The notes below the pieces were generated by a model. It ran no database searches. It saw nothing but the letters and a program-made list of their open reading frames with translations, and was not told where the DNA came from. Shown in pieces: positions 21,054 to 27,026 of a stretch of DNA of 29,728 bases. Positions within the stretch are counted from its first letter, which is position 1. Each line of letters opens with the position of its first letter. This DNA comes from a virus. The translations under genes were made by a program, and so were the position numbers. The DNA is taken from positions 1-29,728 of the IMG/VR virus record IMGVR_UViG_3300029268_000100; one strand, written 5' to 3'.

Positions 21054-22157
21054 GTGAAGGATTTCATCGTCTCGTACGGGACGCGCCCGGAGCTTCACAA
21101 GCTGTGGCCGGTCATCCATAGACTGCGATGCGATGGGGCGAAGGTGTTCGTCTTGTGCACGGGACAGCACTCGACCCTCCTCCGCTCGTCTGAGGCGGCG
21201 ATCGGCCTCTCTCCTGACATCAACCTCTGGGCGATGGCGCCTGACCAGACCTTGCCGGAACTCGCCGGCAGGCTCATGTCGAAGGTTGCGGAGTGGGCTT
21301 TCGGCCAAGACTTCAGTGCGTCGCCTGAGTGTTGGATCGTCCAGGGCGACACGACGAGTGCGCTGATGATGGCGCTCGCCGCGCGCTACCTGAAGATCCC
21401 GGTCGCCCATGTCGAGGCTGGTCTGCGGACGTGGGATGATGACAACCCGTTCCCTGAGGAGATCAACAGGCGGCTCATCGCGCAGCTCGCGCTGTTGCAC
21501 TTCGCGCCGACCAAGCGCGCCGAAGATGCGCTGCTGTCGGAAGGAGTGGGGAGGAGCTTCATCTCGGTGGTCGGCAACACGGAGGTCGATGCGACGTTCA
21601 TGGCGATCGACCGGGTGCCTGCTCTGACCTTCCCGGCGGTGGATGAGAGACGGTACGTCGTCGTCACCGCGCACCGGCGCGAGTCGCAGGGCGCTGCGTT
21701 GAAGGAGATCGCGACGGCGCTCGGGCTGCTGGCGGAGGAGAATCCGGATACGGACTTCTACTTCATCCTCCACCCGAACCCGAAGGCGGTCGAGTCGATG
21801 CGCGAGGCGCTCAGTGCGGCGCCGCCGAACGTGATGAAGGTCCAGTCGTTGGACTTCGTGAGCATGACGCATCTCTTGGCGAAGGCTCATCTTGTGATGA
21901 CGGACTCAGGAGGGCTCCAAGAGAGTTGCGCGTCGCTCGGGGTGCCGGTTGTGATCTTGCGCGACCTCACAGAGCGCATGGAAGCTGTCGAGGCGGGCGC
22001 GGCGATCATCGGCGGGCGCACCTGGGATTCGATCAGCCTCGCGTTTGGTGCGCTGTTCTTCGACACGGAGGCGCGGACGGCGGCGATTCACGCGGTCAAT
22101 CCATTCGGTGATGGGGACGCGGCGCAGCGGATCGTGGAAGTTCTGCGGCGGTCATAG
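21054..22157 (+). CDS. UDP-N-acetylglucosamine 2-epimerase (WecB/MnaA type)
   Basis: A full-length 367-residue epimerase. Signature segments are in order: GTRPE (9-13), VQGDTTS with D99, VAHVEAGLRT with E121, PFPEEINRR with E135-E136, VTAHRRES with H207, and TDSGGLQES. These match the catalytic Asp/Glu/His set of WecB, which interconverts UDP-GlcNAc and UDP-ManNAc in the cytoplasm to feed surface polysaccharide synthesis. GTG 21054 lies 2 bases after the previous stop. A phage copy may alter host glycans or decorate a phage component; no ManNAc dehydrogenase or glycosyltransferase is seen nearby. Confidence 0.9.
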   Translation: MKDFIVSYGTRPELHKLWPVIHRLRCDGAKVFVLCTGQHSTLLRSSEAAIGLSPDINLWAMAPDQTLPELAGRLMSKVAEWAFGQDFSASPECWIVQGDTTSALMMALAARYLKIPVAHVEAGLRTWDDDNPFPEEINRRLIAQLALLHFAPTKRAEDALLSEGVGRSFISVVGNTEVDATFMAIDRVPALTFPAVDERRYVVVTAHRRESQGAALKEIATALGLLAEENPDTDFYFILHPNPKAVESMREALSAAPPNVMKVQSLDFVSMTHLLAKAHLVMTDSGGLQESCASLGVPVVILRDLTERMEAVEAGAAIIGGRTWDSISLAFGALFFDTEARTAAIHAVNPFGDGDAAQRIVEVLRRS

Positions 22158-23066: not shown

Positions 23067-23282
23067 GTGGATCAACAATCAGGGCTGACGCTTCAGGATC
23101 GGTTCATCAGCCCAAAGGCTGTCGCGCATCAGCTCGGCCTGTCGATGGCTACGGTCTACCGGCTGCTCGAAGAGGGGGAGATCCCGTGCATCAGGGCGGG
23201 GCGCTCGTACCGCATCCCTGCGCGGCTCTACGAGGAGTGGCTCTCCAAGCGTCAGCAGGCGAAGGATGACGGGGGATTGTAG
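23067..23282 (+). CDS. Excisionase-family HTH DNA-binding protein
   Basis: A 71-residue protein with the classic HTH_17 (excisionase/MerR-like) pattern: FISPKAVAHQLGLSMATVYRLLEEGEIPCIRAGRSYRIP. Key parts are ISPKAVAHQLGLSMATVY (helix-turn-helix) and EIPCIRAGRSYRI (wing). Such proteins bind DNA as regulators or recombination directionality factors. No integrase is present, so regulation is likelier. It starts at GTG 23067 after the protease stop. Its stop codon TAG is part of the -35 element of the next promoter, so it could regulate the adjacent RNA unit. Confidence 0.75.
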   Translation: MDQQSGLTLQDRFISPKAVAHQLGLSMATVYRLLEEGEIPCIRAGRSYRIPARLYEEWLSKRQQAKDDGGL

Positions 23283-23305
23283 GCGCCTCGGGTTCGCAGT
23301 ATGAT
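23277..23305 (+). promoter_or_regulatory. Sigma70-like promoter TTGTAG-N17-TATGAT
   Basis: TTGTAG at 23277-23282 and TATGAT at 23300-23305 (five of six -10 consensus bases) are separated by exactly 17 bases. The same -35 hexamer and spacing occur at 5015. The predicted transcript would begin near 23312 and end at the intrinsic terminator at 23591-23626. Confidence 0.65.
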
Positions 23306-23327
23306 GCGCGGGTGTGGTGGTACCGGG

Positions 23328-23454
23328 TGAGCGTTGGAGGCGGAAGGATGACGACGAGCCCAACGATCTTGTCTGTGAGCGGACGATCCCCCGCTAGCCG
23401 GATGAGGACCGATGTCACTCCGCTCTTTCACCAACCTTCCGCTTCGAACGCTCA
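23328..23454. repeat. Long inverted repeat, 20-base arms
   Basis: Arms at 23328-23347 and 23435-23454 are complementary at 18 of 20 positions by Watson-Crick rules; one of the others is a G-U pair and one a G-G mismatch. The 87-base interior can form a further 7-bp stem. The left arm includes the purine-rich ribosome-binding site of the small frame at 23348, so folding would hide it. Confidence 0.7.
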
Positions 23455-23482
23455 ACTCGGCGCTTCACCTTACGCGCTCTGA
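23348..23482 (+). CDS. Possible 44-residue small ORF
   Basis: ATG 23348 lies 7 bases after GGAGG and opens a 44-codon frame ending at TGA 23480-23482, just before the long hairpin at 23483. The product is Ser/Thr/Pro-rich with no membrane segment or motif. The good ribosome-binding site argues for translation, but that site is inside the 20-base stem, and the composition looks unlike the other genes. It could be a leader peptide or chance. Confidence 0.25.
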   Translation: MTTSPTILSVSGRSPASRMRTDVTPLFHQPSASNAQLGASPYAL

Positions 23483-23532
23483 CCTCCACGCCCTCTCTGT
23501 GCTGGGTCCTCTACCGCAGGGAGGGTGGGAGG
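23483..23532 (+). other. Long RNA hairpin
   Basis: Positions 23491-23501 pair with 23515-23525 (11 bp including two G-U pairs) around a 13-base loop. After a small internal loop, 23483-23487 pairs with 23528-23532 (CCTCC with GGAGG). It is not followed by a T-run, so it is not a terminator; it fits a structural part of the candidate RNA. Confidence 0.6.
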
Positions 23533-23590
23533 CGGAGTAATCTTGCAGCTTCGGTCCTCGGTTTCCTCCTTGGGCCATGTGGAGAGACAG

Positions 23591-23626
23591 GCGGCGCTCG
23601 CATGGGGGCGCCGCTTGTTCTTCTCC
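23591..23626 (+). terminator. Strong intrinsic terminator
   Basis: GCGGCGCTC at 23591-23599 pairs with GGGCGCCGC at 23606-23614 (9 bp, one G-U) around a 6-base loop and is followed at once by TTGTTCTTCTCC. This is a textbook Rho-independent terminator, lying about 80 bases before the scaffold gene. Confidence 0.85.
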
Positions 23627-23673
23627 TGGCGCATCCATCTCTAATCTTTCCTCACGCGCCTGATCCTGTTGCT

Positions 23674-23702
23674 TATGATAATGCAGTCAGGGTCGGTATT
23701 CT
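23674..23702 (+). promoter_or_regulatory. Possible promoter for scaffold/capsid genes
   Basis: After the terminator the scaffold and capsid genes need a new start of transcription. The 80-base gap is AT-richer than its surroundings and offers two -10-like sites: TATGAT at 23674-23679 and TATTCT at 23697-23702. Neither has a good -35. The second lies 6 bases before the ATG and would give a leaderless message. Confidence 0.3.
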
Positions 23703-23708
23703 GCTACC

Positions 23709-24815
23709 ATGCCCATCATGCTTACCGAAGATGGCGGCGTCCAACTGACGGAGTTGTTCGCACTCGACACGGAATCTGTCCACCTGGTCCGGCGTCCGGC
23801 CATCGGGCGTCGGTTCCTCTTGACGAAGAGCGAGAACAAGGAGGCTGGGCCAATGCTTACGCTGGAGAAGGACATCGCAGAAGTCGTCGCGAAGTTCGAC
23901 GGGTCGAAGGATGAGGCGGAGCGCGTTGCGTTGCGGAAGACGGCGACGCAGCTGTTCAAGGATCTCGGGGCCGCGGTGACGGCGAAGAAGGTCGCCGACG
24001 ACGTGGCACAGGGGCTCGTGGAGAAGGGCCAGGCCCTCTTCAAGGGCGAGGAAGCGACGATCTCGAAGTCCGATGTCGAGGCATGGCTCGGCGAGGTGGG
24101 TGCCGTCCTCAAGACGGCGAAGGAAGAGAAGCCCGCTCCGACGACGCCAGCCGAAGATCCGGCGCAGGCGGTCATCAAGGCGGCGCTCGCCAACCTGGAG
24201 AAGCTCGGCGACAAGGTTCCGCAGTCGGTCGTCGACGTGCTCAAGGCCGAGGCCGCGAAGTTCGATCCCGTGGTCGAGGTGCCGGAGGATGTCCGCAAGT
24301 CCCTCGCGGCGCTCCCGGCGAACCTCCGCGACTCGCTGACGGGGCTCCTCGCCGATCGGGCGCGGGCCGTCCAGAAGGCGGCGGCGGACCGCGAGGCCGC
24401 GCTGCTCGCTCGCATCGAGAAGGCGGAGAAGAGCCAGCAGACGCTCGCGGAGCAGCTCGAAGCGATCCACGTCGAGAAGCACATCGGCGAACTCACCTCG
24501 CAGCTCGGCTTCAAGCACGTCTCGGGCGATGCGCGCGAGTTGGCGCAGATCATCGCGGCGGTCGAGAAGTCCGACCCGAAGAAGGCCGCGAAGCTCATCG
24601 AGGTCCTGAAGTCGGCGGATGAGGCCGTCGCCAAGTCCGGCATCTTCAACGAGCGCGGGATCACGGGCGCAGTTGAGGGTTCGACCGAGGCCAAGGTCGA
24701 GGCCATCGCCAAGTCGATGATGGCAGCGGACAAGGCTCTGACCATCGAGGCGGCTCGCGCGAAGGCGTGGAAGGATCACCCGGAACTGTTGAGGGAGCGG
24801 CGCGAGAATCGCTAG
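23709..24815 (+). CDS. Head scaffolding protein
   Basis: A 368-residue, highly charged and Ala/Lys/Glu-rich helical protein just before the decoration and capsid genes, as scaffolds usually are. The N-terminus (ALDTESVHLVRRPAIGRRFLLTKSE, about 18-42) resembles the opening of phage head proteins with VHLV/RPA/GRRF wording. Residues 195-270 form a coiled coil. Scaffolds guide capsid assembly and are then removed by the protease. The first ATG has no clear ribosome-binding site, while an in-frame ATG at 23853 (residue 49) follows AAGGAGG by 8 bases, so a shorter 320-residue form is likely also or instead made. Confidence 0.75.
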   Translation: MPIMLTEDGGVQLTELFALDTESVHLVRRPAIGRRFLLTKSENKEAGPMLTLEKDIAEVVAKFDGSKDEAERVALRKTATQLFKDLGAAVTAKKVADDVAQGLVEKGQALFKGEEATISKSDVEAWLGEVGAVLKTAKEEKPAPTTPAEDPAQAVIKAALANLEKLGDKVPQSVVDVLKAEAAKFDPVVEVPEDVRKSLAALPANLRDSLTGLLADRARAVQKAAADREAALLARIEKAEKSQQTLAEQLEAIHVEKHIGELTSQLGFKHVSGDARELAQIIAAVEKSDPKKAAKLIEVLKSADEAVAKSGIFNERGITGAVEGSTEAKVEAIAKSMMAADKALTIEAARAKAWKDHPELLRERRENR

Positions 24816-26294: not shown

Positions 26295-26336
26295 CGCGGG
26301 CAGAGTGAGCCTGGGAGAATAGACAAGGGGTGAGTG

Positions 26337-27026
26337 ATGGTTGCGCCAAGCGTGACAAAGGAAAGAACGGAGTACACGGTCATGCGGCCGTTCGGATTCC
26401 GCAAGCGCACTCTCCGCCGCGGTGACGTGGTGGGGCCGGCGATTGAGAAGACGACGAACTTCCATGCGCTGCTCAGATCGGGGTTCATCCGAGCCCTGCG
26501 GAGCGCAGAAGGAGAGACGCTCGTCCCTCGCTGCTACATCACGATTCGCCGATTCATGGCTGGCGGGAAGGAGATCGAGCCGGGGACGTTGGTCGATCTT
26601 CGGGGAACGGAAGGATGGCGCAACGAAAGCTCGCTCCTCGAAACCGGGTTCATTCGCCTGGCGACGGTTGGTGAGGTGGAGAAGCTATCTGCTGCTGATG
26701 GGGAGGGGGCCGATGCCAATGCTGCACCGGCGGCTGCGGCCTCCTCTCCTGCTGGTTCTGGGGAGGGAGGGGAGGGAGTGAAGCCGGCGACGGGACACGT
26801 TCCCGGCCAGCAACTCCCTGCTGACGATCCAGGGCCGGCGGGCCAGGAAGGGCCTCCGGGGCCTCCTCTGCACAAAGACGCTGCGTGGCTCAGGGAGCAA
26901 TACTGGGACCTGGGCCGCACGACGACTCAGATGGCGGAGGCTGCTGGAGTGCCACCGGGCACCATCAGCAAACAGATGGAGAAGCTCAAAATCCCTCGGC
27001 GTCCGCGGGGGCGCCGGAAGCAGTGA
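26337..27026 (+). CDS. Head-tail region protein with repeat, collagen-like linker and C-terminal HTH
   Basis: A 229-residue protein following the capsid gene. The first 120 residues hold two copies of a similar unit, each ending in GFIR (RRGDVVGPAIEKTTNFHALLRSGFIRAL and PGTLVDLRG...LLETGFIRLA; positions about 30-58 and 83-108). A Gly/Pro/Ala linker with PAGQEGPPGPP follows. The C-terminal 40 residues look like a helix-turn-helix (QMAEAAGVPPGTISKQMEKLKI) with a very basic end (RRPRGRRKQ). GTG 26334 or ATG 26337 can start it. Possibly a DNA-contacting head-completion protein; role unproven. Confidence 0.55.
   Translation: MVAPSVTKERTEYTVMRPFGFRKRTLRRGDVVGPAIEKTTNFHALLRSGFIRALRSAEGETLVPRCYITIRRFMAGGKEIEPGTLVDLRGTEGWRNESSLLETGFIRLATVGEVEKLSAADGEGADANAAPAAAASSPAGSGEGGEGVKPATGHVPGQQLPADDPGPAGQEGPPGPPLHKDAAWLREQYWDLGRTTTQMAEAAGVPPGTISKQMEKLKIPRRPRGRRKQ

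Follow-up and report, generated by a model that had tools for sequence, protein, structure and literature searches.

A conserved structured RNA in the head gene cluster of an uncultured phage, possibly an autonomous noncoding transcription unit

Few structured RNAs have been described in phage genomes, and several of the known ones are still without a function. ROOL and GOLLD are stand-alone structured noncoding RNAs of phages, the function of which is unknown (PMC12286853). In phage HK022, a transcript begins with the structured put RNA (PMC9378689). In Pseudomonas, AlpA binds between the -35 and -10 elements, and the polymerase then bypasses a terminator located just upstream of the target gene (PMC7969949). 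A conserved unit of about 310 nt that belongs to no Rfam family and lies between two capsid genes would add a phage RNA family to those described, as well as an example of an 'RNA moron'.

The window analysed in this paper is the whole of the IMG/VR phage contig IMGVR_UViG_3300029268_000100, 29,728 nt (29.7 kb) from an uncultured phage, with a GC content of 64% and tight gene packing. The recognisable genes are all located on the + strand: terminase, portal, head morphogenesis, XkdF-like protease, HTH, scaffold-position protein, small head protein and major capsid protein (MCP). Between the stop of the HTH gene (23282) and the start of the scaffold-position gene (23718) lies a gap of 435 nt without a conserved gene (23283-23717), judged from the list of open reading frames to be the longest on the contig. 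An earlier note on this DNA had placed a candidate structured RNA gene here, flanked by an excisionase-like HTH gene upstream and the scaffold gene downstream; the upstream gene matches PF12728 and TIGR01764. Two relatives were found by way of the capsid protein, namely 3300029286_000209, which is identical over the RNA, and the divergent IMG/VR record 3300032053_000152 (G002/L003, hereafter L003), so that the independent RNA sequences number two. Compared to the window, the L003 proteins are 87% (MCP), 65% (protease), 68% (HTH) and 57% (scaffold-position protein) identical, and an RNA homolog occupies the same slot at L003 3804-4122. The features of the locus are as follows.

23067-23282, + strand: small HTH_17/excisionase-family gene (PF12728, 41 bits; TIGR01764, 46 bits), 68% identical in L003
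23277-23305, + strand: promoter-like element TTGTAG-N17-TATGAT, hexamers and spacing identical in L003, spacer diverged; consensus match 8/12
23312-23625, + strand: structured RNA, its 5' end placed from the -10 position and its 3' end from the hairpin; z -7.4, extreme of 385 windows, homolog in L003
23312-23475, + strand: 5' domain with closing stem P1 (23312-23319 with 23466-23475) and long rod P2/P3 (23329-23347 with 23435-23453); 35 shared pairs, 0 broken
23348-23366, + strand: conserved segment AUGAN..AGCCCANCGA, unpaired in the consensus, candidate binding site; 13/19 positions identical in L003
23348-23482, + strand: 44-codon ORF, judged to be no gene; conserved blocks in different frames in the two phages, with unrelated peptides
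23375-23418, + strand: inner conserved element GUG..CGG / CCG-AUGU-CAC with AUCC/GGAU, pairing proposed; invariant in both phages
23476-23538, + strand: central hairpin P4, z -6.0 (z -4.0 in L003); outer arms beat shuffles in both
23581-23626, + strand: 3' terminator-like hairpin with GGAGAGAC arm and interrupted U-tract; L045 has a terminator at the same position
23697-23720, + strand: conserved TATTCTGCTACCATG just ahead of the scaffold start, identical in L003, likely a promoter in its own right, giving a capsid transcript almost without a leader
23718-24815, + strand: gene at the scaffold position, next downstream, 57% identical to the L003 protein

For the segment 23312-23622 the folding energy is -163 kcal/mol (z -7.4), and 0 of 100 shuffled sequences folded equally well, which is the comparison proposed in the earlier note. 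When 310-nt windows over the contig were scored on both strands (281 + 104 = 385), the RNA window was the most extreme of all with z -7.1, the next non-overlapping one reaching -4.5. Chance is therefore excluded as the source of the fold. The opposite strand of the RNA region gives a z of only -1.9, and the fold signal is therefore that of a + strand RNA. In L003, the whole RNA folds with z -4.2 and the 5' domain by itself with z -1.5 only. The second-strongest independent fold in the window, at 26661-26970 (+, z -4.5), lies within gene 26334-27026; the protein of this gene has a collagen-like PGPAGQEGPPGPP stretch, and repeat composition may account for that fold.

Most of the stems described earlier can be recognised. 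The 20-base inverted repeat pairs 23328-23347 with 23435-23454 through 18 Watson-Crick pairs, 1 G-U pair and 1 mismatch, and the 11+5 bp hairpin is the central hairpin P4. The exact 7-bp nested stem was not identified; the inner stems differ between the energy model and the comparison. For both RNAs, the energy models give a long rod around GCGGAAGG/CCUUCCGC, the central hairpin and the 3' hairpin, with disagreement inside the rod loop. The inner stems GUG-CGG/CCG-AUGU-CAC and AUCC/GGAU, which do not vary between the two phages, are putative. Pairing of AGCCCA with a 3' GGGC works in the window and fails in the homolog, and was rejected. Also rejected was a boxA-like CGCTCTTTCACC at 23421-23432, which is unconserved in the homolog.

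The conserved blocks appear in L003 in the order hexamers, GGCGGAAGGAUGA..AGCCCA.CGA, CCGGAUGAG..CCGAUGUCAC, CCUUCCGC, GCCCUCUC hairpin, GUGGAGAGAC and 3' hairpin. Since the RNA was misaligned by MAFFT, a structure-aware and then a manual alignment was used, which was chosen to fit. In this hand-made structural alignment of the two phages, the 35 shared pairs of the 5' domain include 5 two-sided and 2 one-sided changes, with none broken and with one G-G mismatch of the window rod left unpaired. As a control, the 3' partners were shifted by 1-3 columns, and the pairing then fell to 40-53%. A further 2 two-sided and 2 one-sided changes are found in the 3' hairpin, again without a broken pair. 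Over both regions, the hand alignment of the 2 sequences thus shows a total of 7 two-sided pair-keeping changes and 0 broken pairs. Apart from the invariant cores, which were kept fixed, the diverged flanking parts of the rod pair better than shuffles in the homolog (p 0.034), and the outer arms of the central hairpin do so in both phages (p 0.001 in the homolog, p 0.0035 in the window). A structured model built from the window alone scored 19.9 bits on the homolog, compared to 24.6 bits for a sequence-only model, and structure gave no gain; a single-sequence model handles length changes of the rod badly. L003 also carries about 265 extra bases between the RNA and the scaffold promoter. This stretch contains a 10-bp inverted repeat (GTGGGTTCTG/CAGAACCCAC, L003 4150-4225) and as a whole folds in an ordinary manner (z -0.7).

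The predicted TTGTAG-N17-TATGAT element is present exactly, with TTGTAG at 23277-23282, 17 nt of spacer and TATGAT at 23300-23305. L003 repeats both hexamers and the spacing, and 8/17 positions of the spacer itself are identical. The conservation of the -35 hexamer is confounded, because TTGTAG doubles as the final Leu and stop codons of the HTH gene. The element was not listed by a consensus scanner, since the hexamers match the sigma-70 consensus at only 3/6 and 5/6 positions. At the other end of the RNA, what had been called a textbook terminator is indeed a strong hairpin of 11-13 bp (about 23588-23618); its U-tract is interrupted (TTGTTCTTCT) and weaker in L003, and the window hairpin was not flagged by the scanner either. 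Further downstream, a -10-like element is found 6-15 nt ahead of the scaffold-position start in 3/3 phages (window 23697-23720, L003 4390-4412, L045 5546-5564). No Shine-Dalgarno sequence was seen before this start in the window, L003 or L045, and the transcript is probably near-leaderless. Transcription of the capsid genes need not rely on the RNA promoter, since a conserved -10-like element of their own precedes them.

Searches for known families and further copies returned nothing beyond these phages. In Rfam 15, 0 matches were obtained in the window at the gathering cut-off, and a lax search with both homologs gave only implausible microRNA, snoRNA and sRNA scores far under the cut-offs; the Rfam check recommended in the earlier note thus left the RNA without a family. 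DNA similarity searches in phage and plasmid records yielded nothing credible. Motif patterns run over IMG/VR and GTDB contigs recovered only the two known lineages and chance-looking matches. Among the 69 stretches that matched the 3' motif pattern, the 5'-domain model detected no convincing copy (best E 0.027). That weak match, at L176 3058-3160 (+, 17.7 bits) in an otherwise unrelated viral contig, is probably due to chance. No third homolog emerged when the RNA model was run over 97 loci and 28 whole records.

In more distant relatives, the slot is either closed or differently filled. The protease- and scaffold-position genes are 1-5 nt apart in Roseobacter phage RDJL Phi 1 and Pseudomonas phage KPP23 and close together in L049, L053 and L084, and the RNA is absent from all of these. 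In L045, L048 and L111, whose MCP identity is 57-62%, the HTH gene is present (31% identical). Behind it come a gene for an HNH endonuclease, a strong terminator with AGAGAC in front of it, and TGGACA-N17-TATAAT, which lies 10 nt ahead of the scaffold-position ATG. The HNH gene occupies the RNA slot in L045 (4689-5345); as it is one of five HNH matches in that record, it is read as ordinary homing-endonuclease traffic. Because distant relatives have either abutting protease and scaffold genes or an HNH gene in the slot, the RNA is taken to be a lineage-specific insertion. Compared across these gene orders, the HTH gene is an insertion in this lineage and the RNA an optional occupant of the slot, and the terminator/promoter boundary is shared. 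Within the late gene cluster of the window there is also a UDP-N-acetylglucosamine 2-epimerase gene (21054-22157; PF02350, 283 bits), which is present in L003 too, and an ORF related to it is located upstream in L045.

These findings can be brought together in the proposal, held with about even confidence, that the RNA is an autonomous noncoding-RNA transcription unit acting in trans, an 'RNA moron' between the protease/HTH and scaffold genes. The host RNA polymerase would start near 23312 from a promoter overlapping the end of the HTH gene, and transcription would stop at the hairpin near 23620, producing a stable RNA of about 310 nt. This product would have three parts, a long 5' rod in which conserved segments stay unpaired, the long central hairpin and the 3' hairpin, and it would act in trans, most likely by presenting its conserved internal segments to a protein or target RNA. 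Structure and sequence are conserved in two phages, the promoter-like element is conserved too, the region is noncoding, and the presence of the RNA is lineage-specific. The candidate RNA gene is supported by its strand-specific fold, its syntenic homolog with compensatory changes, its promoter-like element at constant spacing and its conserved 3' hairpin. Nothing supports the packaging or assembly role suggested for it earlier: the large terminase of this phage is an ordinary one (phrog_675 match, 189 bits), relatives that share the order of capsid genes lack the RNA, and no likeness to phi29 pRNA was seen. Counting against an autonomous unit are the structured-model score of 19.9 against 24.6 bits, the z of -1.5 for the 5' domain of the homolog, the hexamer match of 8/12 and the weak U-tract of the homolog. 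More tentatively, the RNA may belong to an undescribed class of phage noncoding RNA, an accessory unit of the head gene cluster beside a small excisionase-type HTH gene; it would act in trans by way of its conserved internal segments, perhaps as a decoy for a protein or as an RNA that counters host defence. The element is defined by its ends, stems and conserved loops, which makes it directly testable.

The chief alternative is that the RNA is the terminated leader of the capsid operon. Transcription from its promoter would normally end at the hairpin, as it does at lambda PR' to give 6S RNA, until a phage factor, perhaps the HTH protein (like AlpA or lambda Q), or the RNA itself (like HK022 put) permits read-through into the scaffold and capsid genes. 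Such a terminated cis leader would have much the same anatomy as an autonomous unit, and the order of HTH gene, promoter, structured RNA, terminator and late genes suits it. The adjoining HTH gene also recalls AlpA, a small phage-type HTH regulator (PMC7969949), and its protein has a weak similarity to PF05930; this similarity, however, reaches 17.4 bits, below the 21-bit cut-off, and is missing from the matches of the homolog, HTH_17/TIGR01764 fitting instead. Moreover, the two phages agree at only 8/17 positions of the spacer between -35 and -10, the stretch to which AlpA binds, Q-type systems require no conserved leader fold, and the scaffold gene is preceded by a conserved -10-like element and in L045 by a strong promoter. 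Antitermination of a leader is regarded as rather unlikely. Improbable, too, is a mere transcription-unit boundary, with a strong terminator or insulator closing an upstream operon whose 3' untranslated region is structured, and with no job for the RNA itself. L045 does have a terminator here with a shared AGAGAC arm, but a terminator needs about 40 nt, whereas conservation and two-sided changes span the 5' domain and central hairpin, and the promoter-like element is conserved as well.

The HNH homing-endonuclease gene in the L045 slot suggests another reading, in which the slot is an insertion hotspot and the RNA was left behind or carried along by a mobile element, being HNH-associated, intron-like or retron-like. 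This is quite improbable: neither RNA-bearing phage has a reverse transcriptase or HNH gene, no Rfam match to intron, HEARO or retron families was obtained, the RNA interrupts no gene, and the slot HNH is ordinary in a record with five HNH matches. RVT_1, which assignment to the retrons requires, was absent from the window, the near-identical contig, the homolog and the L045 record, contigs that may be incomplete. Least credible of all is a small protein gene of 44 codons from ATG 23348. Although a frame of 48 codons opens at the same GGAAGGATGA in the homolog, the two peptides are unrelated past the first residues, and the would-be Shine-Dalgarno sequence of the ORF lies within the P3 stem in both phages. 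Counted from the ATG, CCGATGTCAC is in frame 1 in the window and frame 2 in the homolog, and CCTTCCGC in frames 0 and 2. The conserved blocks are in different frames in the two phages, and the 44-codon ORF is therefore not conserved. Conservation follows the RNA and not the peptide. Selection on this frame had been set beforehand as the result that would refute an RNA gene, and the outcome favours RNA; the claim that the region holds no conserved protein gene also holds, the 44-codon frame being unconserved between the two phages.

Set beside known systems, the proposed autonomous RNA unit is similar to ROOL and GOLLD, large ornate RNAs of phages and prophages, in being a stand-alone, structured and noncoding phage RNA. 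Those RNAs are about 600 and over 800 nt in length and often lie near tRNA islands, whereas this one is about 310 nt and lies in a head gene cluster; in contrast to ROOL/GOLLD neighbourhoods, no tRNA genes accompany it. Neither the Rfam match nor the size of 600-800+ nt that would place it in these families was found. With the lambda PR' leader (6S RNA) and AlpA-controlled leaders it has in common a promoter, a short transcript, an intrinsic terminator before late genes and a small regulator nearby; it departs from those leaders in its conserved fold, in the divergence of the spacer that would bind the factor, and in the separate promoter-like element of the downstream gene. The put RNA of HK022 has two stem-loops and fewer than 80 nt, whereas this RNA is over 300 nt, ends in its own terminator and has no Rfam match. 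Like phi29 pRNA, it is a structured phage-encoded RNA that could be linked to head assembly, but pRNA works with the phi29 packaging ATPase while this phage has an ordinary large terminase (phrog_675), and no Rfam match to the pRNA family was obtained. The likeness to prophage morons lies in a promoter-like element and terminator of its own and in insertion between genes that are adjacent in relatives. Morons usually encode proteins, whereas this unit encodes an RNA.
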